DNA from: Streptomyces griseus | GTDB lineage: Bacteria > Actinomycetota > Actinomycetes > Nanopelagicales > Nanopelagicaceae | Assembly (NCBI GenBank): GCA_945865365.1 | Contig: CAMBDL010000004.1 | Location: 35,906 to 99,905 of the forward strand | DNA: 64,000 nucleotides | Reading direction: 5' to 3' | Shown: in pieces, positions 2,817 through 63,451 of the stretch | Position numbering within the stretch: position 1 is the first letter of the stretch | Layout of the letters: each line of letters starts with the position of its first letter | Program-made: the position numbers and the translations under genes | Notes under the pieces: generated by a model | Told to the model about the DNA's origin: nothing | The model's database searches: none | What the model saw: the letters and a program-made list of their open reading frames with translations, nothing else

Positions 2817-2820
2817 TGTG

Positions 2821-4097: not shown

Positions 4098-4105
4098 GAT
4101 GGAGC

Positions 4106-5529: not shown

Positions 5530-5548
5530 CACCGACGCCTTCCTGAGT

Positions 5549-5565
5549 GTTCCATAATATGGAAC
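5549..5565. promoter_or_regulatory. Candidate IclR operator: palindrome GTTCCATA-A-TATGGAAC, plus half-site GTTCCA at 5570-5575
   Basis: Perfect 8-bp inverted repeat around one base, in the divergent intergenic region between the iclR-type gene and the MttB-superfamily gene. Confidence 0.6.
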
Positions 5566-5631
5566 CACTGTTCCACTATCTAAGGGTATTCTCGTAGGTG
5601 TCCAAAGGTCAATAGGCGCAAGGAGTGTCAC

Positions 5632-7068: not shown

Positions 7069-7075
7069 AACCACT

Positions 7076-8554
7076 ATGGTCGCAACGCTATTTATCAACG
7101 GTCTCTGGAAGCAGGCAGCAGATGGTGGCGCTCACGATGTTCATAGTCCTCACGACCAACGTGTTGTGGCTACGGTATCACAAGCGACCAACACCGATGT
7201 TTTAGATGCAATCGCTGCTGCACGTGCATCATTTGATAGTGGTGTTTTTACTTCGTGGACATTTAAAGAGCGTAGCGCACTTGTTGCAAAGATTGCCGAC
7301 TTGCTTGAGCGCGATGCCGATTTAGTTGCACGCAAAGAAAGCGATGATACGGGCAAGCGATTTATAGAGGCCCAGTACGACATTGCCGATGTCATTGCAA
7401 CTTTTAGACATTTTGCAGCCCTTGGTACCAAAGAGCATGACCGAAGCGTTGACGTTGGTTTAGCCCATGTAACAAGTCGAATCGTGCATGAGCCATTAGG
7501 CGTTGCATCATTGATTGGACCTTGGAACTATCCCTTGCTCCAAATTGCATGGAAAGTCGCCCCAGCCTTAGTTGCAGGATGTTCTTTTATAGTTAAGCCC
7601 AGTGAACTAACGCCGCAGAGCGCAGTTGCATTAATGAAAATAATTGAAGAGGCCGGTACACCCAATGGTGTAGCTAATTTAATTCTTGGCCCAGGCTCTG
7701 TGGTAGGTACTCCGTTGATTAATGATCCTCGCGTTGACCTTGTCTCATTTACAGGTGGATTAACTACGGGGCAGACCATCATGACTGCGGCCGCTAAAAC
7801 AATTAAAAAGTTAGCCCTTGAACTCGGCGGCAAAAATCCACACATCATCTTTGCCGATGCCGATATTGATGCAGCAATCGATAACGCTGTTACTGCAGCA
7901 TTCCTACACTCAGGCCAAGTGTGTTCTGCCGGAACTCGCTTGCTTGTAGAGCGCTCGATTCACGATCGCGTAGTTACTGAAATTGTTCGACGCGCAGCTC
8001 AGATTCGCCTTGGCGGCCCTGATGATTTAACGGCTGAAACTGGCCCACTTATTAGTCAAAGCCATCTGCGCAGCGTTACCGAGTACGTTGAGAAAGGTAT
8101 CGCCGAAGGTGCAACGCTCTTAGTCGGTGGAAAACGTAGCGACTTACCTGAACATGCCAATGGTTGGTATTTTGTTCCGACCGTTTTAGATAACTGCCAC
8201 ACCCAGATGAGTTGCGTACAGGATGAGTCTTTCGGCCCCGTCATGACGGTCGAGGTTTTTGATACTGAAGCCGAAGCAATTGCGCTAGGCAATGACACAG
8301 TATTTGGTTTATCAGGGGGTCTCTGGAGTAGCGATAGCGCTAAAGCGGCTCGCGTTGCTAGCGCCCTTCGCCATGGCACGATCTGGGTTAATGACTTTGG
8401 CCCATATCGCCCGCAGGCTGAATGGGGCGGATACAAGCAATCTGGCATTGGCCGCGAATTAGGCGAGCATGGCTTGGGTGAGTACCTTGAAATCAAACAC
8501 ATTTGGACTAACAATTCACCTAGTCGATCTGGATGGTTTTCAGATCCCACATAA
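7076..8554 (+). CDS. betB: Betaine aldehyde dehydrogenase / NAD(P)-dependent aldehyde dehydrogenase
   Basis: ALDH motifs: [20 protein letters not shown] and catalytic [11 protein letters not shown]; betaine locus context. Confidence 0.88.
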
Positions 8555-8565
8555 GGGGAGAGTCA

Positions 8566-9594
8566 ATGAGTTCTGAAGCGCCGATGATCTCTGTGAAGAA
8601 TCTTTGGAAAGTCTTTGGTTCAAACTCGCAAAAAGTAATAGGTACACCACTAGCCGACTTAACTCGCGCCGAACTACGTGCCCAGACTGGCAACACCATT
8701 GCAGTGCGCGATGTTTCATTTGATGTAGCCCCTGGCGAAGTCTTTGTTGTCATGGGTCTGTCTGGTTCAGGTAAATCAACGCTAGTCCGATGCATGACCC
8801 GGTTGATAGAGCCTACGGCAGGATCCTTAACTTTCGAGGGTGAAGATATTTTACAAGTCGATAATGCTCGTTTACGTGAGCTTCGAAAGACACGATTCTC
8901 AATGGTGTTTCAACACTTTGGTTTATTGCCTCACCGAAATGTCATAGACAACATTGCCTACTCTTTAGAAATTAATGGAGTTAAAAAGACCGAACGTCAT
9001 GCGCGCGCTAATGAAGTGATTGAACTCGTTGGCTTGCAAGGATATTCACATGCCTATCCTGAGCAACTATCTGGTGGAATGCAGCAGCGCGTGGGCTTGG
9101 CGAGAGCACTTGCAGTAGATCCACAAGTACTATTTCTAGATGAGCCCTTTAGTGCGCTAGATCCACTTATCCGTCGCGATATGCAGCAAGAGGTTATTCG
9201 ACTGCATCACGAACTTGGTAAGACTATGGTTTTCATTACGCATGATCTCTCTGAAGCGGTAAAAGTGGGCGATCGAATTGCAATTATGCGAGATGGTGCA
9301 ATTGTTCAGATTGGAACTCCTGAGGATTTAGTTGCGCACCCTGCCGATGATTATGTGGCAAATTTCGTTCGAGATATTGCTAAGTCACACGTTCTCACAC
9401 TTCGCTACCTTGCAAGGCCAGCTAAGCCAGGAGAAGACACAAGCGGCCCCGAACTTTCGGCCGACATGATTATTAGGGATGCATGCAGTTTGATTCTTGA
9501 TGAGCAACGTCCAATACGGGTCAGCGATAAAGGAAAAGCATTAGGAGTCGTTTCAAGTGATGATGTTTTGCGAATCATCTCTGGGGTCGCTTAA
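8566..9594 (+). CDS. proV: Glycine betaine/proline ABC transporter ATP-binding protein
   Basis: Walker [10 protein letters not shown], signature [16 protein letters not shown], Walker [15 protein letters not shown]-terminal CBS-like tail. Start at MSSEAPM after a purine-rich RBS. Confidence 0.92.
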
Positions 9595-11522
9595 TGCGTA
9601 TTAGAAAGTCATACCTACTTCTAGCTTCGGTAGCCATATGGATTCTCTTGGGAAGGCTTTTGCACGGGAAAAATACCCTCCAGATAGATACGTATGAAAA
9701 CACTTCTTTCACCCGTTTTATCGGGGAAAAAGCCCTAGATCTTCGTGGAAATAGAACTGAGAGCCCAGCTTTTATTTATTTCTTTAATCCCATTCGCACT
9801 GTCATAGATGGATTTGTTCAATTTATTAGAAATCTCATCGCCGTTCCTGCGCCAAACTCGGTCATCCCAGTTATCGGTTGGCTAGGCGTAGTGGCAATCA
9901 TCGCATTTGTCGTCTTTGCCACCAGTGCGTTACGAACAGCGCTGCTATCTGTATCGCTGCTTTTAGGGTGCGGCGTACTTGGTATGTGGCAATTTACGAT
10001 GGATTCCATTGCAATGACGTTAGCGGCAGTACTGCTCTCACTATCCATTGGAATTCCACTTGGAATCTGGGCTGGTCTCTCTGATCGGGTATTAAAAATA
10101 CTGACTCCATTTTTAGATTTAGCTCAAATATTGCCCACGCTTGTCTACATGGCGCCTATCGCTCTGGTATTTATGATTGGTGCGGCATCGGCGACTATTG
10201 CAACGATGATTTATGCTATTCCAATTTGTATTCGCATAACTTCACATGCAATCAGAAACCTCAACCAGTCACCCATTGAAGCCTCAGAATCAATGGGTTC
10301 GACCCGTAAACAAACTTTGACCAAAGTTCAGATGCCGATGGCAAAACAGATGATCGTTCTTGGAATAAATCAAACAGTTATGGCTGCAGTCTCATTTGTC
10401 GTTGTCGCCGCTTTGATTGGTGCACCCGGGCTAGGCAAACCTGTGATTGATGCTTTGATCATTAGAAATGTGGGCCAAGGCTTCGTTGCCGGTTTTGCCG
10501 TGGTTTTTCTTGCAATTTTGATGGACCGAAGCACAAGCGCTGCAGCTAAACGCCAAGAATCTTTCGTTCCACCGACTGAAGCCCAGATTAAGCGTAAGCG
10601 ATTTATCTTAATGGGTGCTGCACTAGGGGCGATAATTTCTGTAGTTTTCTCACGCACAATGCTGTGGGCCGCGGTGTGGCCTAAGGAAGTTACGATTGCA
10701 CCACAAGTTGAAAAAGTTACAAATAATGCCACTGCGTGGGTATTAGATAACCTCTATATCTTCACCGTTGGATTTAAGGATCTAATTTCATATTCAATTC
10801 TTAATCCGCTAGAAACTCAACTTTCAGCCTCACCTTGGTATGTAACGGTTGCGATGATTGTTGCACTGGCTTCAATTATTGGTGGATTACGTACAGCGAT
10901 TCTTGCATTTTGTTTAGCAATGGCAATTGTTCTCTCAGGGCTTTGGTATGAAGCCATGCTTACCTTGACCCAAACTATTGTCGGTTGTTTATTGACAATG
11001 GTGATTGGAATTGCACTAGGTATTTGGACGGGGCGAAGTGATCGTGCAGAAAGAGTTTTACGGCCATTTCTAGATGCTGGTCAGACTCTTCCAGCCTTTG
11101 TTTACTTAGTCCCAATGCTGGGATTATTTGGGCCAACAAGATTTACCGCTATTGCTACGGGTATCGTGTATGCGATTCCAGTAGTTGTAAAGATTGTTTG
11201 TGAGGGTATTCGCGCAGTTCCACACTCACTTATCGAAGCCGCAACTGCAGCAGGTTCAACCACGCGTCAGATTATTACGAAAGTTCAATTACCTGCAGCC
11301 AAGAAAACAATTCTGCTGGCGACCAACCAAGGTCTCATCTATGTATTAGCTGTCGTTGTAATTGGTGGTTTTGTGGGTGCTGGTGGCCTTGGATATTTGG
11401 TCATCGTAGGAAACTCAAAGCCCGAGCTGCAAGGAAAGGGGCTCATCGCTGGAGCGGCGATTTTGCTACTTGGTGTTATTTTCGACCGAATTATGCAAGC
11501 CGGGGCCAAGCGTTCGGGATAA
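9594..11522 (+). CDS. proW: Glycine betaine/proline ABC transporter permease, two fused ProW-like modules
   Basis: Two similar permease cores: GIPLGIWAGLSDR...ASESMGSTRKQTLTKVQMP and GIALGIWTGRSDR...AATAAGSTTRQIITKVQLP. Confidence 0.9.
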   Translation: MRIRKSYLLLASVAIWILLGRLLHGKNTLQIDTYENTSFTRFIGEKALDLRGNRTESPAFIYFFNPIRTVIDGFVQFIRNLIAVPAPNSVIPVIGWLGVVAIIAFVVFATSALRTALLSVSLLLGCGVLGMWQFTMDSIAMTLAAVLLSLSIGIPLGIWAGLSDRVLKILTPFLDLAQILPTLVYMAPIALVFMIGAASATIATMIYAIPICIRITSHAIRNLNQSPIEASESMGSTRKQTLTKVQMPMAKQMIVLGINQTVMAAVSFVVVAALIGAPGLGKPVIDALIIRNVGQGFVAGFAVVFLAILMDRSTSAAAKRQESFVPPTEAQIKRKRFILMGAALGAIISVVFSRTMLWAAVWPKEVTIAPQVEKVTNNATAWVLDNLYIFTVGFKDLISYSILNPLETQLSASPWYVTVAMIVALASIIGGLRTAILAFCLAMAIVLSGLWYEAMLTLTQTIVGCLLTMVIGIALGIWTGRSDRAERVLRPFLDAGQTLPAFVYLVPMLGLFGPTRFTAIATGIVYAIPVVVKIVCEGIRAVPHSLIEAATAAGSTTRQIITKVQLPAAKKTILLATNQGLIYVLAVVVIGGFVGAGGLGYLVIVGNSKPELQGKGLIAGAAILLLGVIFDRIMQAGAKRSG

Positions 11523-11608
11523 ATAGTCGAATTAGCGCCTACAAGTACTAGTTTTAGCCCGATTCCCGCTCTAGGCTAAGGCAAAACTTACACTCTTTAG
11601 GAGGGTTA

Positions 11609-12571
11609 ATGAACTCACTATTTAATCGCCGTTCAGCGCTCGTTACCGTCGTGATTGCAGCAGCACTAGTTCTATCTGGCTGCAGCAAGGGCGTTAATGA
11701 TTCTGCAGGCGGGGCATCAGGAGATTGCGGTTCATGGTCAATTGCCATGCACGCATGGGGTGGTTACACAGCATCTGCACAAGTAGTCGCTGAAATTGCT
11801 AAGAAAGAATTAGGTTGCACAATCACACAGACAACTCTGGATGAAGGTCCAACTACATATGATGCAATGGAAGCTGGAACAATCGATGTAATAATCGAAG
11901 ATTGGGGCGGCGGACGTTGGTCAGAATGGGTAGATCGCGGCGCTGTCTTTGAAGCAGGAGAAAACGGCAACGTTGGATTAATCGGTATGTATGTTGCTCC
12001 ATGGATGGCTGCAAAGTATCCAGACATTACAGACTCAAAGAATCTAAATAAGTACGCAGATCTATTTAAGACTGCAGACTCAGGTGGCAAGGGCGCATGG
12101 TTTGAAGGCCCAGCTGGTTACACAACAATCGGTGAAAAAATGGTTTCAGCCAATAATTTGAACTTTAAAGTTATCTTCTCAGGTTCAGAGGCTGCATTAG
12201 TTGATGGCTTTACAAAAGCCGAAGCTAATAAGACCGCATTCATTGGTTATGCATGGCAACCATGGACTCTCTTTGCAAAGATTCCTAACCTTGAATCAGG
12301 TCATGTTAAATTCCCTGCAAATGATTGGTCTGATGCCGCAACAGCAAGCGGTCTCACTGATTACCCATCAACTCCACTCATTAAGTTAATTTCTAAGAAA
12401 CTCAATGATGCAAATGATCCATTTACTTCACTGGTTAATAACTTCAAGTGGACAAATGATGATCAAAATGGTGTAGCTGCCGATCTTGAAGGCGGAATGA
12501 CTGCAGAAGAGGCGGCCCAGAAATGGATCGATGCTCATGCTGACATTGTTGCTACCTGGCTTGGTAAGTAA
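11609..12571 (+). CDS. proX: Glycine betaine ABC transporter substrate-binding lipoprotein (ProX/OpuAC type)
   Basis: Lipoprotein signal (LVLSGCS), OpuAC-like SWSIAMHAWGGYTASAQVVAEIA...; follows the permease and has an AGGAGG RBS. Confidence 0.9.
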   Translation: MNSLFNRRSALVTVVIAAALVLSGCSKGVNDSAGGASGDCGSWSIAMHAWGGYTASAQVVAEIAKKELGCTITQTTLDEGPTTYDAMEAGTIDVIIEDWGGGRWSEWVDRGAVFEAGENGNVGLIGMYVAPWMAAKYPDITDSKNLNKYADLFKTADSGGKGAWFEGPAGYTTIGEKMVSANNLNFKVIFSGSEAALVDGFTKAEANKTAFIGYAWQPWTLFAKIPNLESGHVKFPANDWSDAATASGLTDYPSTPLIKLISKKLNDANDPFTSLVNNFKWTNDDQNGVAADLEGGMTAEEAAQKWIDAHADIVATWLGK

Positions 12572-12587
12572 CTAATAATCTATAGAG

Positions 12588-12635
12588 CAAGGCCTCTACT
12601 TGGTGAAAAATCATCGAGTAGAGGCCTTGTTTTAT
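12588..12635 (+). terminator. Rho-independent terminator after proX
   Basis: CAAGGCCTCTACT / AGTAGAGGCCTTG perfect 13-bp stem followed by TTTTATT. Confidence 0.85.
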
Positions 12636-12651
12636 TAGTACAGTTAGCCAT

Positions 12652-14298
12652 ATGAGCGAGCACTACGACTACATCATTGTTGGTGGTGGCTCGGCAGGCT
12701 GCGCCCTAGCCAATCGCTTAAGTGAAGATCCCAACCATAAAACCTTGGTCCTTGAGGCTGGTCGGCGTGACTATAAGTGGGATGTATTTATCCATATGCC
12801 GGCAGCGTTAGCTTTTCCAATTGGTAACAAACACTACGACTGGATGTATGAGTCTGAGCCAGAACCATTTATGAATAACCGTCGCATCTATCATGCACGT
12901 GGCAAGGTTTTAGGTGGCTCATCATCTATAAATGGGCAAATTTGGCAACGTGGTAATCCTTTAGATTATGAACGTTGGTCCCACGATGCTGGAATGAGTA
13001 GTTGGGACTACGCGCACTGTCTGCCGTACTTTAAAAAGATGGAAAACTGTTTAGCCGATCAAAGCAATACTTTTCGTGGCACCAGTGGCCCACTCAAATT
13101 AGAGCGCGGAGCCGTGAAAGGTCCGCTCTTTGCCGCATTCTTTAAAGCAACAGAGCAAGCCGGTTATCCACGTACTGATGATGTCAATGGTTATCGTCAA
13201 GAGGGATTTGCAGCCTTTGATCGCAACGTCTATCGAGGACGTCGCCTAAGTGCCGCACGCGCATATCTCTATCCCATAATGAAGCGCGCTAACTTAACAA
13301 TCAAGTTACGCGCACATGTGACAAAGGTTTTATTTGAGGGTACAACTGCTACAGGTGTTGAAGTAATGATTAAGGGAAAGAAGCATGTTTTTACATCGCG
13401 TGAAGTGATTTTATGTGGAGGGGCTATAAATACTCCCCAAATTCTACAACTCTCTGGCATTGGAAATGAAAAGGATTTAGCGCCACTTGGGATAAAAATG
13501 GTGCATCATTTACCCGGAGTCGGTGCTAACTTGCAAGATCACCTTGAAGTCTACGTTCAGTACAAATGCAAGCTGCCAGTAACCCAACAACCGATTACTC
13601 AGTTCTGGCGCCGCCCATTTATTGGTGCAGCATGGCTGTTCTTTCGCAAAGGCCCAGGTGCAACAAATCAATTTGAGGCAGGGGGCTTTACGCGCAGCAA
13701 TAACGATGTGGCCTACCCAAATTTGATGTTTCACTTTCTACCGCTTGCCATTCGTTATGACGGAACGGGGGATACGCGTGGGCACGGTTATCAAGTCCAC
13801 GTAGGTCCTATGTATTCAGATTCCCGCGGCCGGCTCACAATTAAGAGCGTCGATCCACGGGAAAAGCCTGCGATTTTGTTTAATTATTTATCTACAGATG
13901 AAGATCGCCGTGAGTGGGTTGAAGCGGTTAAAACTGCGCGAAATATTCTGACTCAGCCCGCAATGAATGATTTCAACGCAGGCGAATCATCTCCTGGTGC
14001 ATCGGTATCAACAGACGCTGAGATTTTAGAGTGGGTGCGCAAAGACGCCGAGACTGCTTTGCATCCTTCTTGCACCGCCAAGATGGGTACAGATGCAATG
14101 TCGGTTGTGGATCCAGAAACCATGAAAGTTCATGGAGTTAGCGGTTTGCGAGTATGCGATGCATCAGTATTTCCATATGTGACTAACGGCAATATCTATG
14201 CACCTGTAATGATGGTGGCAGAAAAGGCAGCGGATTTAATTCTAGGAAAATCACCACTACCTGCAGAAAAAATTGAGTTCTATCGCCATGCCAAGTAA
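12652..14298 (+). CDS. betA: Choline dehydrogenase (GMC oxidoreductase)
   Basis: [24 protein letters not shown] motif, [31 protein letters not shown]..., [28 protein letters not shown]. Confidence 0.93.
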
Positions 14299-51834: not shown

Positions 51835-53172
51835 ATGAAAATTCGAAAAAAAGCATTTGCAGTGGGCTGCGCAGCTGCCGTGCTTGTAACTTCACTCAGT
51901 TTTACTGGGGCGACGGCATCAAACTCATTTAGCAGGGCATTTCCTACTAAGGCAGTGACTTTGACTATGTGGTGGTGGGGCGATCAAGAAGCACCTGGTG
52001 CAAAGCTCTGGGTTGAAGACACTGTCAAGGCGTATAAAAAGAAGCGCCCAAATGTAACTATCAAAACCGTTCTTCAAACAACTGAAGGATTAGTTCCCGC
52101 ATTTGCAGCTGCAGCTGCAGCGAAAAAGGGTCCAGATCTACAGTACTTCTGGGGTGGAATTTACGCCCAGCAACCTGGATGGGATGGCCAAATCGCGCCA
52201 GTATCAGATTACATTCCCGCCTCAGAGTTAAAGCATTACATCAATGCAACGACAGAGCTTTCATTTAAAGGAAAAATTTGGACAGCGCCATGGTATGTAA
52301 ATCCATCATTCCCAGTACTTGCGCGAACAGATGTCTTAAGTAAATACAACCTAAGCGTTCCAACAACATGGAAAGATTTGCTCAACGCGTGTGATGTCCT
52401 CAGCGCTGCAGGCGTGCCTGCATTAGCTGGTGGAGTAAAAGATGGCTGGTTCGGCGGTTGGTTGTATTCAATCATCGGTGGACAGTCTGTTTCATCAAGC
52501 AAAGATGTAGTAGCGGCAGTGGTTGGAACACAAAAATTCACTGATGCAAAGCATGCTGATTGGTGGACACGACTTCAGGAGACTCAAGAACACAAGTGTT
52601 GGAACTCAGACATCAACTCTCTTGAACTGTATCAAGCGCAGCAGTTATGGAAAGACGGAAAGGCGGCTATGACTGTAGTAGCAGGTCCTGATGCTCCAAA
52701 CTTCGCTAACGCAGTTGGCGCCTCAAAGGTTGTCGTTATGGCAATGCCAAAGTGGGGTAAGGGACCATTTGCTGGCAAGATGGGAAGTACGTCACAGACC
52801 ATCGGTATCACGCAGTGGAGCAAGAACAAAGAAGTTGCAGCCGACTTCTTGATGTTCTCTCACGAGAAGGCTCAACTCAATAACTGGTACAAGCGCACAG
52901 GATCTATGCCAGCTGATGACCGTTTCGATATGAACCAAGTCAAAGATCCAGTCAAGAAGGCTCTATTCCAAAGCGCACTTCCTGGTGGACCATACCTAGA
53001 GAACTTCATTCCTGCCCAACTAGATACTGATGCAGTATTTACCAATGTGCAGTTGGTCCTCAATGGAACTAAGACCGGTAAGGCAGCAGCTGCCGAAATG
53101 CAGACTCTCATGGAGAGGTTACGCAAGACTGATCGCAAGCTTGTCAGTAACTTCACCGAATGGAGTAAATGA
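51835..53172 (+). CDS. Sugar ABC transporter substrate-binding protein
   Basis: Signal peptide MKIRKKAFAVGCAAAVLVTSLSFTGATA; family-1 SBP features; followed by two permeases. Confidence 0.9.
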   Translation: MKIRKKAFAVGCAAAVLVTSLSFTGATASNSFSRAFPTKAVTLTMWWWGDQEAPGAKLWVEDTVKAYKKKRPNVTIKTVLQTTEGLVPAFAAAAAAKKGPDLQYFWGGIYAQQPGWDGQIAPVSDYIPASELKHYINATTELSFKGKIWTAPWYVNPSFPVLARTDVLSKYNLSVPTTWKDLLNACDVLSAAGVPALAGGVKDGWFGGWLYSIIGGQSVSSSKDVVAAVVGTQKFTDAKHADWWTRLQETQEHKCWNSDINSLELYQAQQLWKDGKAAMTVVAGPDAPNFANAVGASKVVVMAMPKWGKGPFAGKMGSTSQTIGITQWSKNKEVAADFLMFSHEKAQLNNWYKRTGSMPADDRFDMNQVKDPVKKALFQSALPGGPYLENFIPAQLDTDAVFTNVQLVLNGTKTGKAAAAEMQTLMERLRKTDRKLVSNFTEWSK

Positions 53173-54101
53173 TTAAATCCGTACCAACGGAACACCGCTT
53201 CACCGCCCCTAGAGACTTAGGGGCGGTGTTGGGCCGTTTAAGCACATCAGGACCATTTCTGTGGATTCTTCCAGCAGGAATATGTGTCCTGCTTATTTTT
53301 GGCTATTCAATTATTGACCTGGTCCAGCAAAGCTTTAAGTACCGTGGTGATTGGGTGGGATTTGAGAATTTCTCACTAGTTTTAACCGACCCGCTTTTTC
53401 GGATAGCAATATCCCACAACTTTTTACTTTTGTTTACGGTTCCCATTCTTGCTGTACTGAGTTTTATGTGCGCAGTCCTGCTATTTGAAACTAGAAAGGG
53501 AATGAAGTTTTATAGATCGGCAGTCTTCTTACCGTATATTCTTCCAATTCCTGTGATCGGTGTAGTTTTCGGACAACTATTGCAACTCAATGGTGCCCTC
53601 AACTCAGCCTTACGTGCAATGGGCTTTAACAACTTAGCCCTTGATTGGCTTGGAGAGCCAAGTCAGGCGTTATGGACTATGAGTGCGATCATTATTTGGA
53701 AAGAGGTCGGCTTTGGGACAATTTTGATTCTTGCACGCCTCATTTCGCTCCCACTTGAAACCTTAGAGGCAGCACGCATTGACGGTGCTGGATTTTTTAG
53801 ACTCCATTTGAAGGTGACACTTCCGCAGTTAAAACCGGTAATTCTTTTTTATCTAATCAATGAAGCTATAGTCATGGTTTCTTGGGTTTTTAACTATGTT
53901 TATGTAATGACCAATGGTCAAGGTGGCCCAGGAAATGCAACCGTGGTGTCAGAGCTCTATATTTATCGGAGCGCCTTCCAAAATAAATCTCCTGAATTGG
54001 CTGCAACAGCTGCGCTTCTTCTCCTTCTAGCCACACTTATTTTTATTATAGGTTTCTTTAAAGTTCAAAGAAATGCCAATCGGGGTCTCTTCAATGAGTA
54101 A
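53169..54101 (+). CDS. Sugar ABC transporter permease (MalF-like)
   Basis: LEAARIDGAGFFRLHLKVTLPQLKPVI EAA loop. Confidence 0.9.
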   Translation: MIKSVPTEHRFTAPRDLGAVLGRLSTSGPFLWILPAGICVLLIFGYSIIDLVQQSFKYRGDWVGFENFSLVLTDPLFRIAISHNFLLLFTVPILAVLSFMCAVLLFETRKGMKFYRSAVFLPYILPIPVIGVVFGQLLQLNGALNSALRAMGFNNLALDWLGEPSQALWTMSAIIIWKEVGFGTILILARLISLPLETLEAARIDGAGFFRLHLKVTLPQLKPVILFYLINEAIVMVSWVFNYVYVMTNGQGGPGNATVVSELYIYRSAFQNKSPELAATAALLLLLATLIFIIGFFKVQRNANRGLFNE

Positions 54102-54936
54102 GAAATACACACCGATTGAAAAAGTGGGAATCACGTCACGCCAATTGATACTTATTTTAATAACAGCTATGGCAGCTGTGCCTGGCTATCTCATGGTGAC
54201 TGGCTCTCTTAAAACACAGGCAGAATTTCTTAACTCACCTTGGTCGCTTCCAATGAATCCAAATTTCCAGGGATACTCGGCTGCGTGGAATGATCAATTT
54301 CCAACGTGGTTTAGAAATAGCCTCTTAGTTACTGTAACCGCGGTCTTCATCACGATTGTTATGGCCGCTTGCGCTGCATGGGGTTTTGCGCACTGGAAGT
54401 GGAAAGGTCGAGACACAGTGCTAGGGATACTCATCTCGTTGATGGTTGTACCCCCCGTTGTTTTACTCATTCCACTCTTCACATTGGGTGCAAAACTTGG
54501 ATGGATCTCTACTTTTCGAATGCTTATCCTTGTCTATATAGGCCTCATGTTGCCGTTTTCAATTTACCTGCTGACGAATTTTTTTAGAGCTATTCCAGCA
54601 AGCCTTACTGAGGCTGCAGAGATCGACGGAGCATCTAATTTTAGAACCTTCAGATCCGTAGTTCTTCCGCTTTCTGGTCCTCCGCTTATAACTCTCACGA
54701 TCGTTAATTTGCTCTGGGCTTGGAACGAACTTTTATTGGCTTTAGTGTTCTTGCAAAGCGATGAGCAAAAGACTCTTATGGTCGGTATCACCGGATTTCA
54801 GAGCCGATATTCCCTGTCGATCCCAACTATTATGGCTGGTATGACTATTGCAACGCTTCCATTATTTATTACATATGTTTTTGGTCAGCGCTACTTTATA
54901 ACTGGTTTGACCGCCGGTTCAGTTAAGGGGGAGTGA
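54094..54936 (+). CDS. Sugar ABC transporter permease (MalG-like)
   Basis: LTEAAEIDGASNFRTFRSVVLPLSGPPLITL EAA loop. Confidence 0.9.
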   Translation: MSKKYTPIEKVGITSRQLILILITAMAAVPGYLMVTGSLKTQAEFLNSPWSLPMNPNFQGYSAAWNDQFPTWFRNSLLVTVTAVFITIVMAACAAWGFAHWKWKGRDTVLGILISLMVVPPVVLLIPLFTLGAKLGWISTFRMLILVYIGLMLPFSIYLLTNFFRAIPASLTEAAEIDGASNFRTFRSVVLPLSGPPLITLTIVNLLWAWNELLLALVFLQSDEQKTLMVGITGFQSRYSLSIPTIMAGMTIATLPLFITYVFGQRYFITGLTAGSVKGE

Positions 54937-54938
54937 GA

Positions 54939-55223
54939 ATGGAGTTTTTAGTCTCGATAAATGTCGACGTACCTCAGGATTTTCCGGCCTCTAGCTTCGA
55001 ACAACTACTCATTAGAGAGCGATTGCGCGGAAAAGAGCTCAAGGCCCAAGGTTCAATTGAGCGCATATGGAGAGTCCCTGGGACGAGAAACAATGTAGGT
55101 ATTTGGAAAGCCGAGGATGCCAGCGAACTTCACTTACTCTTGAGCTCCTTGCCAATCTTTGCATTTATGAGAATTGAAATACTCCCGCTAGCAGTACACC
55201 CATTAGAAGAGGAAATGAAATGA
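54939..55223 (+). CDS. Muconolactone delta-isomerase-like protein
   Basis: MEFLVSINVDVP...LLIRERLRGKELKAQGSIERIWRVPGTRNNVGIWKAEDASELHLLLSSLPIFAFMRIEILPLAVHP matches the MIase fold pattern. Confidence 0.78.
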   Translation: MEFLVSINVDVPQDFPASSFEQLLIRERLRGKELKAQGSIERIWRVPGTRNNVGIWKAEDASELHLLLSSLPIFAFMRIEILPLAVHPLEEEMK

Positions 55224-56008
55224 AAAAACTTGATCAAAAGGTAGCTATTGTCACTGGGGCTGCTCAAGGAATCGGTCGTGCAATAGCTGATGAATTAGCG
55301 CGGGCGGGAGCGCATGTTGCTGTATTTGATTTAAATATAGAGAGTGCACAGATTGCCGCAGCAGAGATTTCTAAGTTGGGCGTTACCTCTCGAGGATATG
55401 CCGTGGATGTTTCACAGTCGAAAGTGGTTGATGATGCATTCGCACAAGTCGTTGCTGATTTTGGACGCTTAGATATATTAGTAAATAATGCGGGGGTTTC
55501 ATTCGTTGGCCCTCATATTAAAGATGTCACCGATGAAGTCTGGGATATTAGTCTGGGTGTTATGCAAAGTGGTGTGTTTTACTGCATGCGCGCTGCAATA
55601 AGATATTTTCTTCCTCAGAGATCTGGAAGCGTGGTCAATATTTCATCTATCCGAGGCTTTTCTTCCAACCCAGGAAGAATCGCATACTGTGCAACTAAAG
55701 CTGCAGTAATTATGATGACTCGCGTGGCCGCAGCCGAATGGGCACCATATGGCGTTCGAGCTAACGCAATCGCACCAGGAGTGCAACGAACTCCCATGTG
55801 GGATATCGATGTTGAACTCGGCGTCGTTGATGAAGAGCGTGTATTAAGAGTTACTCCTGCTGGACGCTTAGGTGATCCCAAGGAGATTGGAAAACTCACC
55901 GTCTTTCTCTGTTCCGATGATGCCGATTTCATCAATGGGGATTGCATCACTATAGATGGCGCACTTACAACGGTTCCGATCGATGGCGCGGTTACTCGCC
56001 CGAAATGA
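55220..56008 (+). CDS. SDR-family oxidoreductase
   Basis: VTGAAQGIGRAIADELARAGA; NNAGVSFVG; YCATKAAVIMMTR. Confidence 0.92.
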   Translation: MKKLDQKVAIVTGAAQGIGRAIADELARAGAHVAVFDLNIESAQIAAAEISKLGVTSRGYAVDVSQSKVVDDAFAQVVADFGRLDILVNNAGVSFVGPHIKDVTDEVWDISLGVMQSGVFYCMRAAIRYFLPQRSGSVVNISSIRGFSSNPGRIAYCATKAAVIMMTRVAAAEWAPYGVRANAIAPGVQRTPMWDIDVELGVVDEERVLRVTPAGRLGDPKEIGKLTVFLCSDDADFINGDCITIDGALTTVPIDGAVTRPK

Positions 56009-56886
56009 TGATTCACACCTTAGCTACTGAAGAGTTGAGTATTTCAGTCCTGCCAGAAAATGGTGGGGCTATTACTCATGCTGTTTTTCAGGGGCAAAAC
56101 TTTCTAGCTAAAGCCCCTCATCCCTCCGTAGAGCCAAAGTTTTTAGGCACAGAGCAAGACTGGGTGGCAGCCTGGAATGGTGGCTGGCAGCCGCTTCTAC
56201 CTAATGCCGGTAGCGAGTACCTACATGGCAAGTATCCTCAAGGTTTTCATGGCAATGCCTCTCAAGCAGCTTGGAGTATTTGCGAGAAAACTGCGCATTC
56301 CCTGTCTTTAGAATGGAGCGATGAAAATCTTAAGAGTCAACGCTCAATAACGATCAACGAAAGTGGGATAAGGCTTGCTGGATCTCTCGTTAATCGTGAC
56401 ACAGAGCCTCGACCTGTCATCGTTACTGAGCATTTGATTTTAGGATCTGATTTCTTAAAGACTGCAGTGCGATTGGAGCCAGTTGGTAATGCACAATTTA
56501 GAGAGTTAGCCTACGACGGCTCTGCTAACGGTGCTGAGTTTGGACCATGGGAAAGTTTTCACAACACAAATTGGTCAGTAGTTACATCTCAGACGCCGGC
56601 AAGAATGGGTGTCTTTTCAGATATTTCATGTATACGAGTAAGCAATGAGAATTATGAGATTGAAATTTCTTGGGATGCAGAAAATCTACCGTATCTTTGG
56701 ATTTGGGAGGAGATGGCATTCACGCAAGAACACCCTTGGAATGGAGAGTACGTGGCTCTTGGCATTGAACCCTCGAGTGCAGCTGATGGAGTTGGTTTAG
56801 GTGGTGGTTCAGTAAAAACTTTGGCAGTAGATGAAAAATTGAATTGGTCCGTACAGTTAAAAATCAAAAAGAGAGCGAGTAAATGA
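56005..56886 (+). CDS. Aldose-1-epimerase-like (galactose mutarotase-fold) protein
   Basis: ISVLPENGGAITHAVFQGQNFL, GGWQPLLPNAGSEYLHGKYPQGFHGNAS. Confidence 0.75.
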   Translation: MMIHTLATEELSISVLPENGGAITHAVFQGQNFLAKAPHPSVEPKFLGTEQDWVAAWNGGWQPLLPNAGSEYLHGKYPQGFHGNASQAAWSICEKTAHSLSLEWSDENLKSQRSITINESGIRLAGSLVNRDTEPRPVIVTEHLILGSDFLKTAVRLEPVGNAQFRELAYDGSANGAEFGPWESFHNTNWSVVTSQTPARMGVFSDISCIRVSNENYEIEISWDAENLPYLWIWEEMAFTQEHPWNGEYVALGIEPSSAADGVGLGGGSVKTLAVDEKLNWSVQLKIKKRASK

Positions 56887-56887
56887 G

Positions 56888-57373
56888 ATGGCAATTCGTG
56901 GCGCAGTCCAACATACGGGATTAACTGTGAGCAACCTAGAGAGATCTATTGATTTTTATGTGCGGATTCTCGGCTGCACACTCATTATGGCCCAGGAAAA
57001 AACGGGAGGTTATCTTGCAGAAATAGTCGGGTATCCCAATGCCAGCGTGAAGATGGCGCATTTAAGTGATCCGGCGGGCCACCATGTTATTGAATTATTT
57101 GAATATGTCACACCTGAAGTGCTGCCAACAGATCTTGAACCTCGACGAATAGGCAACGCGCACCTTTGTTTTATGGTTTCTGATCTAGACCGAGTTTATT
57201 CTGAGCTTCAAAATGAGGGAATTACTTTTATCTCCGGCCCTGTAGCAGTCGATACTGGAGCAAATGCTGGAGGTGCAGGACTTTACTTGCGAGATCCCGA
57301 TGGAATTACCATGGAGCTTTTTCAGCCCGCTCCAGGTACCGCCGCTTATAAACTATTACATGGTGAAAAATGA
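56888..57373 (+). CDS. VOC-family (glyoxalase-like) protein
   Basis: VQHTGLTVSNLERSIDFYVRILGCTL; AHLCFMVSDLDRVYSEL; YLRDPDGITMELFQP. Confidence 0.92.
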   Translation: MAIRGAVQHTGLTVSNLERSIDFYVRILGCTLIMAQEKTGGYLAEIVGYPNASVKMAHLSDPAGHHVIELFEYVTPEVLPTDLEPRRIGNAHLCFMVSDLDRVYSELQNEGITFISGPVAVDTGANAGGAGLYLRDPDGITMELFQPAPGTAAYKLLHGEK

Positions 57374-58113
57374 AAAACTTCACTGAGCAAGTTATCGTAG
57401 TCACTGGTGGCGCACATGGAATTGGGAAGGCGACAGCTGAATTATTCCTAGAACTCGGGGCTCGAGTAATTGTTTTCGACCGAGAGCAACCAGAGAAAAA
57501 AACAGAGATTGACAACCTCATAATTGATTTAGGCAACCTCTCTGATTTAGAGAGTGCAGTTGCAGATGTTGTTCAGAAGTATGGAAGAATCGATGTGCTC
57601 GTAAATGTCGCTGGAATTTCCGTACCAAATACAATTCTTGATCTTGAACTTGATAAATACTTCACAACTTTAGATGTAAATCTTCATGCTCCGCTATTTC
57701 TTATGAAACATGTCGGCAAGATCATGGTCAAACAATCATATGGACGAATCGTTAACTTAACGAGTATTCATGGAAAATTGAGTGAACCCACTTCCACTGC
57801 CTATGACGTTAGCAAGGCAGGCCTTGAAGCGGCTACACGAACCGTCGCCCTTGAGTTTGCAGAATGTGGCGTGCTAGTTAATGCAGTGGCTCCAGGCTTT
57901 GTTGCAACTCGGATGTCGATCGTTAATGGTCAGGATGAACTTGAAAGCGATTGGTTTAATGAGGTTTATATTAAAAATAAGCGGTTGCCAATCGCTCGTC
58001 CAGCTTTGCCTATTGAGATTGCTCACGTTATTGCATGGTTAGCAAGCTCTTCGAATACATATATGACGGGCCAAACTCTCACTGTTGACGGTGGATTGTC
58101 GGTAAGGTTCTAA
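57370..58113 (+). CDS. SDR-family oxidoreductase
   Basis: VTGGAHGIGKATAELFLELGA; YDVSKAGLEAATRT. Confidence 0.92.
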   Translation: MKNFTEQVIVVTGGAHGIGKATAELFLELGARVIVFDREQPEKKTEIDNLIIDLGNLSDLESAVADVVQKYGRIDVLVNVAGISVPNTILDLELDKYFTTLDVNLHAPLFLMKHVGKIMVKQSYGRIVNLTSIHGKLSEPTSTAYDVSKAGLEAATRTVALEFAECGVLVNAVAPGFVATRMSIVNGQDELESDWFNEVYIKNKRLPIARPALPIEIAHVIAWLASSSNTYMTGQTLTVDGGLSVRF

Positions 58114-58116
58114 ATT

Positions 58117-58965
58117 ATGAAGGCTGAGGTTACATTTAAAGGAGTTGCATTTCCCGAGTCTTTGCGTTGGCGCGGTGGCGACTTGTGGTTCTCTGATGTT
58201 CTAGCGGGAGTGGTGTACAGGGGCGACATTGCAACTGGGGAGTTACATACAGAAGCTGAAATCCCACCTCTAGTATCTGGTCTTGGGTGGTTGCACTCGG
58301 GTGAGTTATTGGTGGTGGATTGCGAAAAGAAAGCAGTTGTGCGACAAAAATTAAGTGGAGAGTTTGCGATTTATTCAGATTTCAGTTCTCATTGGAAATT
58401 TAGCGCTAATGACATGCTTGTTGACTCTGATGAGACTGTCTGGGTAGGAACCTACGGCTTTAATCCTGAAGGGGATTCGCCTGTACCAGCCGACCTAGCA
58501 CGAATCGCAAAGGGAGTAATTGACTTTCCAATCTCCGGACTAGTTTTTGCAAATGGAATTGCACGCATTGATGACAGCAGGATAGTAGTTGCGGAGACCT
58601 TTGCTGATCGAATTTCAATTATTCAAACCAGTGGTGAAGTTAAACTTCTTAAGCACATTCAATTACCAGGTAATGCAACCCCTGATGGACTCGTTGTCGA
58701 TAATCAGGGTTGTGCTTGGGTAGCATCGGCATATGGCGAGGCAGTTCTTCGAGTGGATCTTGAATCTGAAGAAGTGGTTCGAGCGATTGAAATTCCAGGT
58801 AGAGGTGTTTATGACTGCACTTTTGGAGGAGTGAATCTCGACAAACTTTATGTTGCAACATCGACGATCGATGAGACACATGTATTACGGGACTTACCCG
58901 GAGAAATTCTTTGTTTTGATTTAACGACAGATTATCCAGGTCTTCAAGGAATGGGGAATAAGTAA
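58117..58965 (+). CDS. SMP-30/gluconolactonase-family protein
   Basis: FPESLRWRGGDLWFSDVLAG, ANDMLVDSDETVWVGTYG, ATPDGLVVDNQGCAWVASAYG. Confidence 0.88.
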   Translation: MKAEVTFKGVAFPESLRWRGGDLWFSDVLAGVVYRGDIATGELHTEAEIPPLVSGLGWLHSGELLVVDCEKKAVVRQKLSGEFAIYSDFSSHWKFSANDMLVDSDETVWVGTYGFNPEGDSPVPADLARIAKGVIDFPISGLVFANGIARIDDSRIVVAETFADRISIIQTSGEVKLLKHIQLPGNATPDGLVVDNQGCAWVASAYGEAVLRVDLESEEVVRAIEIPGRGVYDCTFGGVNLDKLYVATSTIDETHVLRDLPGEILCFDLTTDYPGLQGMGNK

Positions 58966-59972
58966 TGGCACAGGTTAGATTCCGTCAGGCTATAGCTCTG
59001 GCCCTTGCAGATGAAATGCGTATAGACCCCGCAGTTATGGTCTTTGGTGAAGATGTTGCACAAGCAGAAGGGCCATTCAAAACATCTGAAGGTCTACTGG
59101 CTGAATTTGGTCCTCTTCGAGTTCGGGATACTCCAATTTCGGAAATGGCATTTACTGGCGCAGGAGTGGGCGCAGCCACAGCTGGAATGAAGCCTGTTAT
59201 TGAGATTATGTTCATGGAGTTTATGGGCGTTGCTCTCGATATGGTTGTAACAGAGGCTGCAAAGTTTCACTATTTAAGTGGAGGGCAGTTTAAAGTCCCT
59301 ATGGTTATACGCGCTTCAGTTGGAGCAGGTGGAGGGTTTGGTCTTCAACATTCGCAAACATTAGAGAATTGGTTGGTTGCAACGCCAGGACTCAAAGTTA
59401 TTGTTCCATCAGATATTCAATCGGCCTATGAGTTAACACGTGCAGCGATCCGTGATCCTGGTCCGGTCGCAGTTTTAGAGCCGCGTGCGCTCTATGGTGA
59501 CAGAGGCGCACTCGTTCAAAAAGAAGATGGACTCATGGAGATTGGTAAGGCGCGAATCATGCGAGAAGGCGCCTCACTGACCGTAGTTTCAATGGGTCAG
59601 TTAGTGGGTAAATCTCTTGAAGCTCTTGCGGGCATGGATGTCGAAGTCATCGATCTTTCTACTCTTGTACCGTGGGATCAAGATTGTGTTTCACAATCCA
59701 TCAAAAAAACTGGCAGACTCGTTATCGTGCAAGAAGCACCTATTAGTGGTGGTTGGGGACATGAGATTCTTTCACTGATGGTGAGTAAGCATTTCGCAGA
59801 TTTAAAAGCTCCTCCTTTTATTATTTCGCCCCCAAATGCGCCCGTTCCTTACGGAAAAGAGTTAGAAGAGTTATACATTCCGCAGCCGGGTTATATCAAA
59901 GAGCAGATTGCTCACTATCTAGTGACTAACCAAGTTCCGACCCCTTGGTGGATTCAGAGAGGGTTGCTCTAA
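58965..59972 (+). CDS. 2-oxoacid/acetoin dehydrogenase-type E1 beta subunit
   Basis: VFGEDVAQAEGPFKTSEGLLAEFGPLRVRDTPISEMAFTGAGVGAA; FMEFMGVALDMVVTEAAK. Confidence 0.92.
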   Translation: MAQVRFRQAIALALADEMRIDPAVMVFGEDVAQAEGPFKTSEGLLAEFGPLRVRDTPISEMAFTGAGVGAATAGMKPVIEIMFMEFMGVALDMVVTEAAKFHYLSGGQFKVPMVIRASVGAGGGFGLQHSQTLENWLVATPGLKVIVPSDIQSAYELTRAAIRDPGPVAVLEPRALYGDRGALVQKEDGLMEIGKARIMREGASLTVVSMGQLVGKSLEALAGMDVEVIDLSTLVPWDQDCVSQSIKKTGRLVIVQEAPISGGWGHEILSLMVSKHFADLKAPPFIISPPNAPVPYGKELEELYIPQPGYIKEQIAHYLVTNQVPTPWWIQRGLL

Positions 59973-60964
59973 TGACTACACAGAATGAAGTTCAAAGTAA
60001 GCGCCGAAGAGATCTAGCAGATCCAGTTGAACAGTTACGGCGAATGCTTGAGATTCGATATTTCGAAGAAGAGATAGTGGGATTATTCTCTGAAGGCCTC
60101 GTCCATGGAACCACTCACACATGTCAGGGTCAAGAAGCTCTCAATATTGGCTTAGCAGTAACACTTAATTCAGATGATTTTGTTGCTTGTACATACCGCA
60201 GTCACGGTTTCGCATTAGCTTTAGGCCTCACACCCGAAGCCGCACTAGGTGAAATTATGGGTCGTACAACTGGATGCATTGGCGGAGTCGGGGGCTCCAT
60301 GCATCTATCTGCACCAGAGTTAGGGCTTTTGCCAACCTTTGCAATTGTGGGTGCTGGTCTGCCTATTGCTGCAGGTGCTGCTCTTGCATTTCAAACTCGT
60401 GGAGAAAAACGTGTTGCAGTCGCAGTATTTGGCGATGGGGCGGCAAATATTGGGGCTTTTCATGAAGCTCTTAATTTGGCTTCTGTTTGGAAACTACCAG
60501 TCATCTTTGTCTGTGATAACAATTTATACGGTGAGTACAGTCGAATTGAAACAACAACGTCGGTTGTTGATATCGCACAGAGAGCGGCATCATATTCTAT
60601 GCCATCTGAAATAATCGATGGCATGAAAGTCGATGAGGTTATTTCTAGTTTGAATCGTGCAATTGATCGTGCACGTTCTGGTGGCGGTCCAACACTTATT
60701 GAAGCAAAGACTTATCGCTATGCAGGTCATTCAAGAGCTGATTTAGCAACCTATCGTCCTGTGGGTGAGCTCGAGTCGTGGCTCCCTCGTGATCCAATTC
60801 TCGTTCGACAAAATGAATTAGTTGCATCCGGTGTACTTACGTTAACTGAAGTTGCAAAAATATCAGAAGAAGAACGAGAAGCAATCGCGCGAGTAATTGA
60901 ATTCACCCGTAACGCTCCCTTCCCACAGCCAGATGCTATTTTCAAAAATATTTGGACAAGTTAA
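59972..60964 (+). CDS. 2-oxoacid/acetoin dehydrogenase-type E1 alpha subunit (TPP-dependent)
   Basis: MLEIRYFEEEIVGLFSEGLVHGTTHTCQGQEA; FGDGAANIGAFHEALNLASVWKLPVIFVCDNN TPP motif; YRYAGHSRAD. Confidence 0.94.
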   Translation: MTTQNEVQSKRRRDLADPVEQLRRMLEIRYFEEEIVGLFSEGLVHGTTHTCQGQEALNIGLAVTLNSDDFVACTYRSHGFALALGLTPEAALGEIMGRTTGCIGGVGGSMHLSAPELGLLPTFAIVGAGLPIAAGAALAFQTRGEKRVAVAVFGDGAANIGAFHEALNLASVWKLPVIFVCDNNLYGEYSRIETTTSVVDIAQRAASYSMPSEIIDGMKVDEVISSLNRAIDRARSGGGPTLIEAKTYRYAGHSRADLATYRPVGELESWLPRDPILVRQNELVASGVLTLTEVAKISEEEREAIARVIEFTRNAPFPQPDAIFKNIWTS

Positions 60965-60973
60965 GGGGTTCAT

Positions 60974-61213
60974 ATGAAGTCAACAGCAAAAATGCCAAAA
61001 GTAGCCGACAGCGTTGATGAGGTCTTTATTTCAGAAATTCTAGTTGCCCCAGGAAGTGTGGTTCAAGCTGGAGATCCACTGATGCTAGTAGAAACTGATA
61101 AAGCAAGCGTTGAGGTTCCATCTCCGGTCACTGGAACTGTTATTACAATCTTGGTCGAGATCGATCAAGAAGTAAGTACGGGAACTCCAATCGTTGAAAT
61201 TGAAACTAGCTAA
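60974..61213 (+). CDS. Stand-alone lipoyl-domain protein (E2 lipoyl domain only)
   Basis: 79 aa: MPKVADSVDEVFISEILVAPGSVVQAGDPLMLVETDKASVEVPSPVTGTVITILVEIDQEVSTGTPIVEIETS, with DKA lipoylation motif and no catalytic domain. Confidence 0.92.
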   Translation: MKSTAKMPKVADSVDEVFISEILVAPGSVVQAGDPLMLVETDKASVEVPSPVTGTVITILVEIDQEVSTGTPIVEIETS

Positions 61214-62268
61214 ATCTTCTTCTTATTTCGCACTCTATTAGTACTGCTCTCACGGATAATAAAGTGAGTATCAATCACTGTTTTACGGGGTTTAGCGCCA
61301 CGCATAATTTCAAGCAACAGGCGAGCCGACTCTCGGCCAAGCATCTCGGCATCGCGGTATACCGATGAAAGCTGCGGAAGGATAACGTCAAACATAGGCC
61401 ATTCGTCGATGGCTACAAAAGAGACATCAGTTCCTATAGTAAGACTAAGGGAGCGTAGGGCACGTATCGCACCCGCTGTAGCTCCAACTCCACCTGTGAG
61501 AATTGCCGTTGGAACGGTGGGAGAAGAAAAGAGCAGATACGTTTGACGTTCAGAGAATTCTTCTGTGAAATTACCAAGACGGATATTATTCTCATTTATA
61601 GGAAGATTATTTTCTGCAAAGGCTTTCTTGTAGCCCTTTAAACGTTCACGCGTAATCAGAACATCAGGCGTTCCTGTTACGAAAGCAATTTCCCTATGGC
61701 CTTGATTAATAAGGTGATTTACTGCATCTCTAGTTCCAGCAAAGTGATTTGCGGATACACTTCCGTATTCATATCCAGCAACCTGGCGATCTAGTAGCAC
61801 AAGTGGCGAACGAAGGCTTTGTAGAGAACTCTTAACAGTAGAAGATTTTTCGGAAACAAGCGACGCAATAATTCCATCGACCCTTCGCCTTCGCAGAACT
61901 GCAAAATTTTCAGACTCAGTAATGTCATCTCCATCTGAGCTCATGAGTATCATTGAGTAGCCCATCTTGCGCAACTCTTGTTCACAACTTTGAGCCACTT
62001 GAGCAAAAAGCGGATTAGAAATGTCAGTAATAATGAATCCAATTGTTCGGGTCTCACCGCTACGCATCGATTGCGCTAAAATATCGGGTTCATAACCTAA
62101 AAATCGTGTTGCCTCCTCAACTTTTTTTGCCATGCGTGCAGAGACATCTGGGTGCCCGGACAACACTCGCGAAACACTTGAGATTGCTACTCCTGCTCTC
62201 CGTGCTACATCTTCCATCGTTGCAACAGGCAGGGGAGTTACTCGATCTTCTGGCTTCCGTTGTGACAT
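61210..62268 (-). CDS. LacI-family transcriptional regulator
   Basis: ATMEDVARRAGVAISSVSRVLSGHPDVSARMAKKVEEATRFLGYEPD; start at MSQRKPED (62268). Confidence 0.94.
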   Translation of the reverse strand: MSQRKPEDRVTPLPVATMEDVARRAGVAISSVSRVLSGHPDVSARMAKKVEEATRFLGYEPDILAQSMRSGETRTIGFIITDISNPLFAQVAQSCEQELRKMGYSMILMSSDGDDITESENFAVLRRRRVDGIIASLVSEKSSTVKSSLQSLRSPLVLLDRQVAGYEYGSVSANHFAGTRDAVNHLINQGHREIAFVTGTPDVLITRERLKGYKKAFAENNLPINENNIRLGNFTEEFSERQTYLLFSSPTVPTAILTGGVGATAGAIRALRSLSLTIGTDVSFVAIDEWPMFDVILPQLSSVYRDAEMLGRESARLLLEIMRGAKPRKTVIDTHFIIRESSTNRVRNKKKI

Positions 62269-62329: not shown

Positions 62330-63451
62330 ATGAACTCGATTATGCGAATTGAAACTGAGCTCATCAGGGTGCCTTTAGCGCGCACATACAAGGGCTCGTT
62401 CTATCAGATGACACATAGATCAACCGTGCTTATGCGAGTCTTTACTGACGATGGAGCCATAGGAGAGGCATATGTTGGCGATGAAGATGCGGGACTGGGA
62501 GAGATTGATTCGATTATTCATGAGGAAATAGCACCTCGATTATTTGGTCAGGATGCTTTGGCGATTGAAAAGTGTTGGGAGATTGCTCGGCCGGCTACCT
62601 GGAATATTCTGCGAGATCGCAGATTAGGCCTTGTAGCAAGCGCCGCCTTTGACACAGCGTTGTGGGATCTTATGGGTCGCACATTAAATATTCCGTTGTG
62701 GAAATTATGGGGTGGGTATCGAAATTCAGTACCAGTGATAAGCATCGGTGGTTATTACAATAGTAATTTGACCATTGAAGATGAGATTACTTATTTGCAG
62801 GAAAAACAGTTTGCAGGGATAAAATTTAAAGTTGGAGGATTGTCTCCCGCAGAAGATGCCGCAAGAGTCCGCTTAGCTCGATCTGTTGCTGGAAAAGATT
62901 TTAAAATTGCAGTAGATGCTAATCAAGGTTGGGACATTGAATCAGCCGTAACTTTTGCACGACTCGTAGAAGATCAAGAGATTATGTGGTTCGAAGAGCC
63001 ATGTAATTGGGAAAATGACCGCAGAGCAATGAGAGATGTACGTTTTAGAAGTGGCATAGCAGTATGTGCCGGCCAAACAGAGATGTCGGCTGCTGGTTGT
63101 CGTGACTTGATGGAAATTGGCGCAATTGATTACTGCAACTTTGATTCATCGTGGTCGGGCGGACCAAGCGAATGGTTGCGTGCTGCGGCAGTAGCTACAA
63201 CGTATGGCGTGAAAATGGCTCATCATGAAGAAGCCCAAGTCTCTGCCCACTTAATAGCTTCTCAGCCACATGGCACATTTATTGAATTTTTCCATCCTGA
63301 TCGGGATCCAATTTGGCACAATGTAATCTCAAATGCGGCTCCGCTAGACAATGGCTATTTAACCCTTCCTACTGAGGCTGGACTTGGGTGGGTGCTCGAC
63401 CGTGAGTACATCGCCAAGTATCGAATAAGTGAGAGAACTACTAAGCGGTAA
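62330..63451 (+). CDS. Mandelate racemase/muconate-lactonizing enzyme family protein (probable sugar-acid dehydratase)
   Basis: IKFKVGG (KxK), IAVDANQGWDIESA, WFEEPCNWEND, AGQTEMS, VKMAHHEEAQVSAHL; start after AGAGGG RBS. Confidence 0.88.
   Translation: MNSIMRIETELIRVPLARTYKGSFYQMTHRSTVLMRVFTDDGAIGEAYVGDEDAGLGEIDSIIHEEIAPRLFGQDALAIEKCWEIARPATWNILRDRRLGLVASAAFDTALWDLMGRTLNIPLWKLWGGYRNSVPVISIGGYYNSNLTIEDEITYLQEKQFAGIKFKVGGLSPAEDAARVRLARSVAGKDFKIAVDANQGWDIESAVTFARLVEDQEIMWFEEPCNWENDRRAMRDVRFRSGIAVCAGQTEMSAAGCRDLMEIGAIDYCNFDSSWSGGPSEWLRAAAVATTYGVKMAHHEEAQVSAHLIASQPHGTFIEFFHPDRDPIWHNVISNAAPLDNGYLTLPTEAGLGWVLDREYIAKYRISERTTKR

Follow-up and report, generated by a model that had tools for sequence, protein, structure and literature searches.

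A free-standing lipoyl-domain protein conserved with the E1 subunits of a 2-oxoacid dehydrogenase in a putative actinobacterial sugar-acid operon

In the 2-oxoacid dehydrogenases, decarboxylation of a 2-oxo acid by E1 is coupled to reductive acylation of a lipoyl-lysine. The lipoyl domain of the textbook complexes is tethered to E2, channelling the intermediates. A fusion of E1 with a lipoyl-less E2 core (Kgd) is usual in actinobacteria. This OdhA/KGD type is a precedent for lipoyl groups supplied in trans (PMC10415282, PMC7568260). In actinobacteria a lipoyl domain can reach an E2 core in trans (PMC7568260); the way in which a single set of lipoyl domains supplies several catalytic sites has been named an open question (PMC10415282). 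OdhA already breaks the tethering rule; in the locus described here the opposite half, the lipoyl domain, became a separate gene. LbpA aside, no description of a free lipoyl protein paired with E1 was found in the open-licence literature searched, an absence that is not proof. We regard the locus as a new arrangement of known parts, in which E1 is paired with a free lipoyl carrier of its own but with no E2.

The window is a stretch of 64,000 nucleotides on contig C4 of a 1.41 Mb assembly that is 92% complete. On its forward strand, a sugar ABC transporter (binding protein and two permeases, 51835..54936, recognized by reading the sequence, with orthologues in the same order in L010) is followed by a 96-aa protein of the muconolactone isomerase (MIase) family (54933..55223; PF02426, 102 bits), a short-chain dehydrogenase (SDR1, 55220..56008; PF13561), an aldose-epimerase-like DUF4432 protein (55999..56886; PF14486, 40.6 bits), a VOC/glyoxalase-fold protein (56888..57373; PF00903, 58 bits), a second short-chain dehydrogenase (SDR2, 57370..58113; PF13561) and a putative sugar lactonase of the SMP-30/gluconolactonase family (58117..58965; PF08450, 105 bits). 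E1beta, E1alpha and the lipoyl gene come next. Beyond them stand a LacI-type regulator on the reverse strand (61210..62268, its start codon re-placed at 62268 by reading) and, again on the forward strand, an acid-sugar dehydratase of the enolase superfamily (MR_MLE, 62330..63451; PF13378, 170 bits). LacI homologues recur next to E1 or lipoyl genes in relatives, and VOC homologues adjoin E1 in L159-L161 and L185. The MIase-family protein, perhaps a mutarotase or lactone isomerase, recurs with VOC and E1 in L158-L161 and L185. At the other end of the window (40-14298) we read a corrinoid methyltransferase set (RACo-like protein, pterin methyltransferase, corrinoid protein and MttB-like protein) adjoining ProVWX and betaine-aldehyde and choline dehydrogenases. 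Demethylation of choline or glycine betaine in a streamlined actinobacterium is a possible role for this set.

The lipoyl gene (60974..61213, forward strand) is a complete open reading frame of 79 codons with an ATG start and a purine-rich AAGGGG-like ribosome site, and it lies 9 nt beyond the E1alpha stop. The initial annotation had read its product as a lipoyl domain alone. Consistent with this, Pfam Biotin_lipoyl (PF00364) spans residues 6-76 of the 79 (71.8 bits against a cut-off of 22.1), the reading frame stops where the domain stops, and AlphaFold2 returned an all-beta lipoyl-type fold (pLDDT 93). The closest relatives in the PDB are E2 lipoyl domains of pyruvate dehydrogenase, and Foldseek with the model retrieved E2 lipoyl and biotinyl domains with TM up to about 0.9. 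Lys43, the predicted lipoylation site within V-E-T-D-K-A, was unchanged across 22 of 22 diverse homologues. The protein thus has the DKA lysine of 2-oxoacid dehydrogenase lipoyl domains, in an ETDKA motif, and not the AMKM biotinylation motif of biotin carboxyl carrier protein. That the operon ends at this gene also held, as the LacI-type gene is convergent and the two stops overlap (61210/61213).

A resemblance to GcvH and to the lipoate-binding proteins of sulfur oxidation had been proposed as well, and it fared less well. Free lipoyl proteins of the LbpA kind are known (PMC6067878), and a carrier of the GcvH/LbpA type serving another pathway might stand in this operon by chance. However, the GCV_H score was only 20.7 bits, below the cut-off of 22.2, the protein scoring instead as an E2-type lipoyl domain; family scores likewise gave no support for a likeness to LbpA, which is GcvH-type. 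At 79 aa it lacks the length and the flanks of an H-protein, it was always found with E1 or CoA-ester genes, and no gcv or hdr genes were noticed in the loci read. We rejected a GcvH/LbpA identity on the score and the length, and consider a chance placement of such a carrier very improbable.

Both E1 subunits carry the thiamine diphosphate-binding and catalytic residues of a 2-oxoacid dehydrogenase. E1alpha (330 aa, 59972..60964, forward strand; PF00676, 235 bits) is a thiamine-diphosphate dehydrogenase of the E1_dh family that keeps the GDGAAN...N motif and the GHS histidine loop when compared with human PDH E1alpha. It scored below the PdhA equivalog cut-offs of NCBIfam (TIGR03182, 314 bits against 393.85). 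In E1beta (335 aa, 58965..59972, forward strand; PF02779/PF02780), Glu60 and His129 were invariant among the 36 sequences compared, and the protein ends in a clade-specific C-terminal tail (...TPWWIQRGLL).

Of 296 genomes covered by an order-wide search, 112 contain the E1alpha family, with about 49 matches above 50% identity, and 60 neighbourhoods were fetched around E1alpha matches. A lipoyl ORF of 77-96 aa adjoins E1 in 38 loci, 36 within the order and two (G565, G407) from other actinobacterial lineages. The two genes are usually 0-9 nt apart or share a 1- or 4-nt stop/start overlap; some of the negative spacings listed reflect over-long ORF starts. In the E1alpha tree the E1s of this free-lipoyl clade form a group with support 99. 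At five further loci of the clade (L158-L161, L179) E1 lacks an adjoining lipoyl gene. When the genomes of three of these were searched whole, each had a free lipoyl ORF elsewhere; the displaced ORFs scored 90-94 bits with the clade's own profile and grouped with the clade in the lipoyl tree.

Because a full E2 occupies the equivalent place in a cousin operon (L217), the lipoyl ORF might be taken for a 3'-truncated relic of an E2 gene. Against this, about 40 loci, other actinobacterial lineages included, keep it as a separate ORF whose length and end are the same. Comparison with the closest orthologue indicated strong purifying selection (pN 0.107, pS 0.82, a ratio of about 0.13 in which pS is saturated). 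Moreover, the free lipoyl domains form a group of their own apart from E2 domains (support 92/84), in a tree of 79 columns whose deep support is weak. Conservation, selection and the separate grouping rule the relic out for practical purposes, and we give it scarcely any credence.

The carrier is matched by a feature of its E1. The C-terminus of E1beta in the free-lipoyl clade is an extension of roughly 15 residues with an invariant Trp-Trp; the window protein ends ...VPTPWWIQRGLL, and AlphaFold2 placed the two tryptophans within a short helix (328-331). The WW tail was present in 43 of 43 E1beta sequences of the clade, G565, G407 and the five lipoyl-less loci included, and in none of 70 others, which stand with a full E2, with another free lipoyl protein or with no visible partner. 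The tail is also a mark of shared ancestry, so this correlation may represent one evolutionary event and not 43. A docking role is plausible, since the carboxy-terminal region of canonical E1beta lies close to the E2 subunit-binding site. These results establish the free lipoyl carrier as a real, selected protein co-inherited with the WW-tailed E1 clade, and very probably the window ORF is a functional free carrier that works with the adjoining E1.

No E2 core or E3 had been seen in the window, and this was borne out: profile matches to E2 cores and E3 in the whole genome fell only on C1 and C13. Three Biotin_lipoyl proteins were found in the genome, namely the 79-aa ORF, a housekeeping E2 of 526 aa and a 588-aa frame that we take, from its length and weaker score, to be biotin carboxylase. 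The housekeeping E2 lies on C1, has two lipoyl domains of its own and stands beside the genome's sole E3, a dihydrolipoamide dehydrogenase; by reading, LipB- and LipA-like genes are in the same stretch. The second E2 core belongs to a Kgd/OdhA-type E1+E2 fusion on C13 (1246 aa), which gave no lipoyl match. A search for a lipoyl-less E2 core and an E3, as the initial annotation advised, therefore returned both, the core as the Kgd fusion and the E3 beside a complete E2. The window E1 is a separate alpha/beta pair and not such a fusion, and the operon encodes no chain that combines lipoyl domain, subunit-binding domain and acyltransferase core. Profile searches of the whole genome (92% complete) found no E2 or E3 dedicated to this E1, and none was found in three single-contig relatives with the same E1 (G256, G257, G036), each of which likewise has just those two E2 cores and a single E3. 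At 92% completeness an absent gene is conceivable for the window genome, though the closed relatives agree. This leaves the shared enzymes as the sole candidates.

The original proposal of a mobile carrier loaded by E1, with release by another protein, is thereby partly supported: the carrier is a conserved separate ORF without dedicated E2 or E3. Contrary to the prediction, an intact E2 exists on C1, so that E1 may deliver to the housekeeping complex and not to a specialised release protein. E1 might even use the two lipoyl domains of the housekeeping E2 directly, leaving the free lipoyl protein an accessory (buffer, activator or redox partner). Absence of a local E2 is common, for many of the related actinobacterial E1 pairs in the E1alpha tree have no lipoyl gene or E2 nearby, and in C. 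glutamicum two different E1s have one E2 between them (PMC7568260). Yet a free lipoyl gene was present in every genome examined that has a WW-tailed E1 (38 adjacent; 3 of 3 non-adjacent by whole-genome search), and the invariance of Lys43 also argues against an accessory. Direct acylation of the housekeeping E2 with the carrier in a side role is in our view doubtful. Among the loci without a lipoyl gene or E2 nearby, L222-L229 are E1alpha/E1beta pairs from other actinobacterial lineages.

Cousin loci display other layouts of the same parts. The operon of G514 (L217) contains LacI, MR_MLE, full E2, E1beta, E1alpha and SDRs; its MR_MLE is 64% identical to that of the window, its E2 (413 aa) has lipoyl, E3_binding and 2-oxoacid_dh domains, and its E1alpha lies near the free-lipoyl clade in the E1alpha tree. 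The free carrier therefore occupies the place of the full E2 in this cousin. At G634 (L221:1-709), the protein after E1beta starts with E3_binding and has no lipoyl domain, the contig ending inside it. In G119, of the window's own family, separate genes (L170:8962-16774) encode E1a, E1b, a lipoyl protein of 79 aa, a bare E2 core of 229 aa and a ligase of the LplA/B type, so separation of lipoyl carrier and acyltransferase core exists in this lineage. L170 also encodes a GlpD-like protein, an FGGY kinase and a class II aldolase. It alone has both a separate E2 core and a lipoyl ligase; neither was found near WW-type loci. More free lipoyl proteins (78-92 aa) accompany E1 pairs without the WW tail at L171, L174, L175, L176, L181 and L185. 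Homologues of MIase, DUF4432, VOC, SMP-30 and SDR are common to L185, where a non-WW E1 occurs with a free lipoyl protein, and the window operon.

In relatives the carrier is also linked to enzymes of CoA esters. A class III CoA-transferase (CaiB family) is divergent to E1beta in most of the 28 CaiB-holding neighbourhoods, and in about nine neighbourhoods the gene after the lipoyl gene encodes a beta-hydroxyacyl-CoA lyase of the CitE type. In G136 and G155 the free lipoyl gene is the last of an operon MaoC-CaiB-CitE-MaoC-CaiB-lipoyl, and in G019 the gene before it, truncated by the contig edge, reads as CaiB. The constant company of E1 or CoA-ester enzymes suggests that the acyl group may end as a CoA thioester. 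A tight operon MaoC-CaiB-CitE-MaoC-CaiB ending with a free lipoyl gene was seen at L182:2909-7491 and L183:6875-11456; this enzyme set is reminiscent of the mesaconyl/citramalyl-CoA part of the 3-hydroxypropionate bicycle.

Such neighbours raise the alternative that no E2 core takes part in unloading the carrier: another pathway protein, a CoA-transferase (in relatives) or a hydrolase, would take the acyl group directly, the carrier acting like an acyl carrier protein. The CaiB neighbourhoods above, with CaiB in the lipoyl operon of G136 and G155, speak for it, as does the failure to find a dedicated E2 anywhere. However, class III CoA-transferases act on CoA esters, not lipoyl esters, a housekeeping E2 was present in all genomes searched, and in the cousin L217 a full E2 is used. 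No CoA_transf_3 match was obtained in the window genome, so a CoA-transferase route cannot be general, and the link to CoA-transferase and CitE is valid for relatives only. We consider direct release unlikely. As part of the window's own pathway, CoA-transferase and CitE lyase were both rejected; the genome's HpcH_HpaI match is weak and lies inside a 482-aa frame that is presumably pyruvate kinase.

MR_MLE dehydratases yield 2-keto-3-deoxy acids; from these, oxidative decarboxylation would lead to 3-hydroxyacyl thioesters, products that match the CitE lyase seen in relatives. To judge from these gene neighbourhoods, the CoA-transferase/CitE context would suit a diketo acid no better than a 4-hydroxy-2-oxo (2-keto-3-deoxy) acid. 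With a second SDR a 2,4-diketo acid, the kind of substrate put forward in the initial annotation, is possible.

Taken as a whole, the free carrier with shared E2 and E3 is reasonably likely to represent a 2-oxoacid dehydrogenase module in dissociated ('split') form, set in an operon for sugar-acid catabolism, and this is the reading that we prefer. E1alpha/beta would decarboxylate a 2-oxo acid made by the operon, and by the chemistry of the family the acyl group would pass to lipoyl-Lys43 of the separate 79-aa carrier, itself presumably lipoylated by LipB/LipA, for which genes are present. The carrier would then diffuse to an acyltransferase core encoded elsewhere, most likely that of the housekeeping E2 and possibly the lipoyl-less core of Kgd. 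With the swinging arm separate from E2, the acyl group is probably handed to the cell's one shared acyltransferase, whose core would move it to CoA, and the single E3 (Lpd) would re-oxidise the carrier. A point against a split carrier is that lipoyl domains usually make worse substrates when isolated than when tethered. More tentatively, and with a rather low probability, the WW tail of E1beta may dock a diffusible carrier that yields its acyl group to a non-E2 acceptor or to whichever shared E2 core fits, no complex being assembled. The split module, which we favour, points to an uncharacterised sugar-acid entry route into acyl-CoA metabolism. The carrier layout is kept in dozens of related genomes of an abundant freshwater actinobacterial lineage with reduced genomes, and at 330 + 335 + 79 residues it offers a minimal natural system for asking whether tethering is needed.

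Compared with complexes of the PDH, BCKDH and acetoin dehydrogenase type, the window module has the same E1alpha/beta with catalytic Glu and His, the same thiamine diphosphate motif and an E2-type lipoyl domain with ETDKA, and the same cofactor chemistry is expected. Unlike in these complexes, its lipoyl domain is a separate protein, its E1beta has the WW tail, and a peripheral-subunit-binding domain, an acyltransferase core and an E3 are all lacking from the module itself. With OdhA/KGD and its shared E2p it would have in common that lipoyl group and acyltransferase core are on different polypeptides that meet in trans, and that one E2 and one E3 serve several E1s; but in that system the lipoyl-less E2 core is part of the E1 chain, which depends on E2p for a lipoyl domain, whereas the window E1 has its own free lipoyl domain and no core. 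GcvH and LbpA are likewise small free lipoyl carriers, yet they have the sequence and length of the GcvH family and work with the P and T proteins or sHdr, while the window protein is an E2-type domain whose partner is E1. The split-E2 locus of G119 (L170) also combines E1a, E1b and a free 79-aa lipoyl protein in a sugar operon; it differs from the window in adding the bare 229-aa E2 core and the lipoyl ligase, and in an E1beta without the WW tail.
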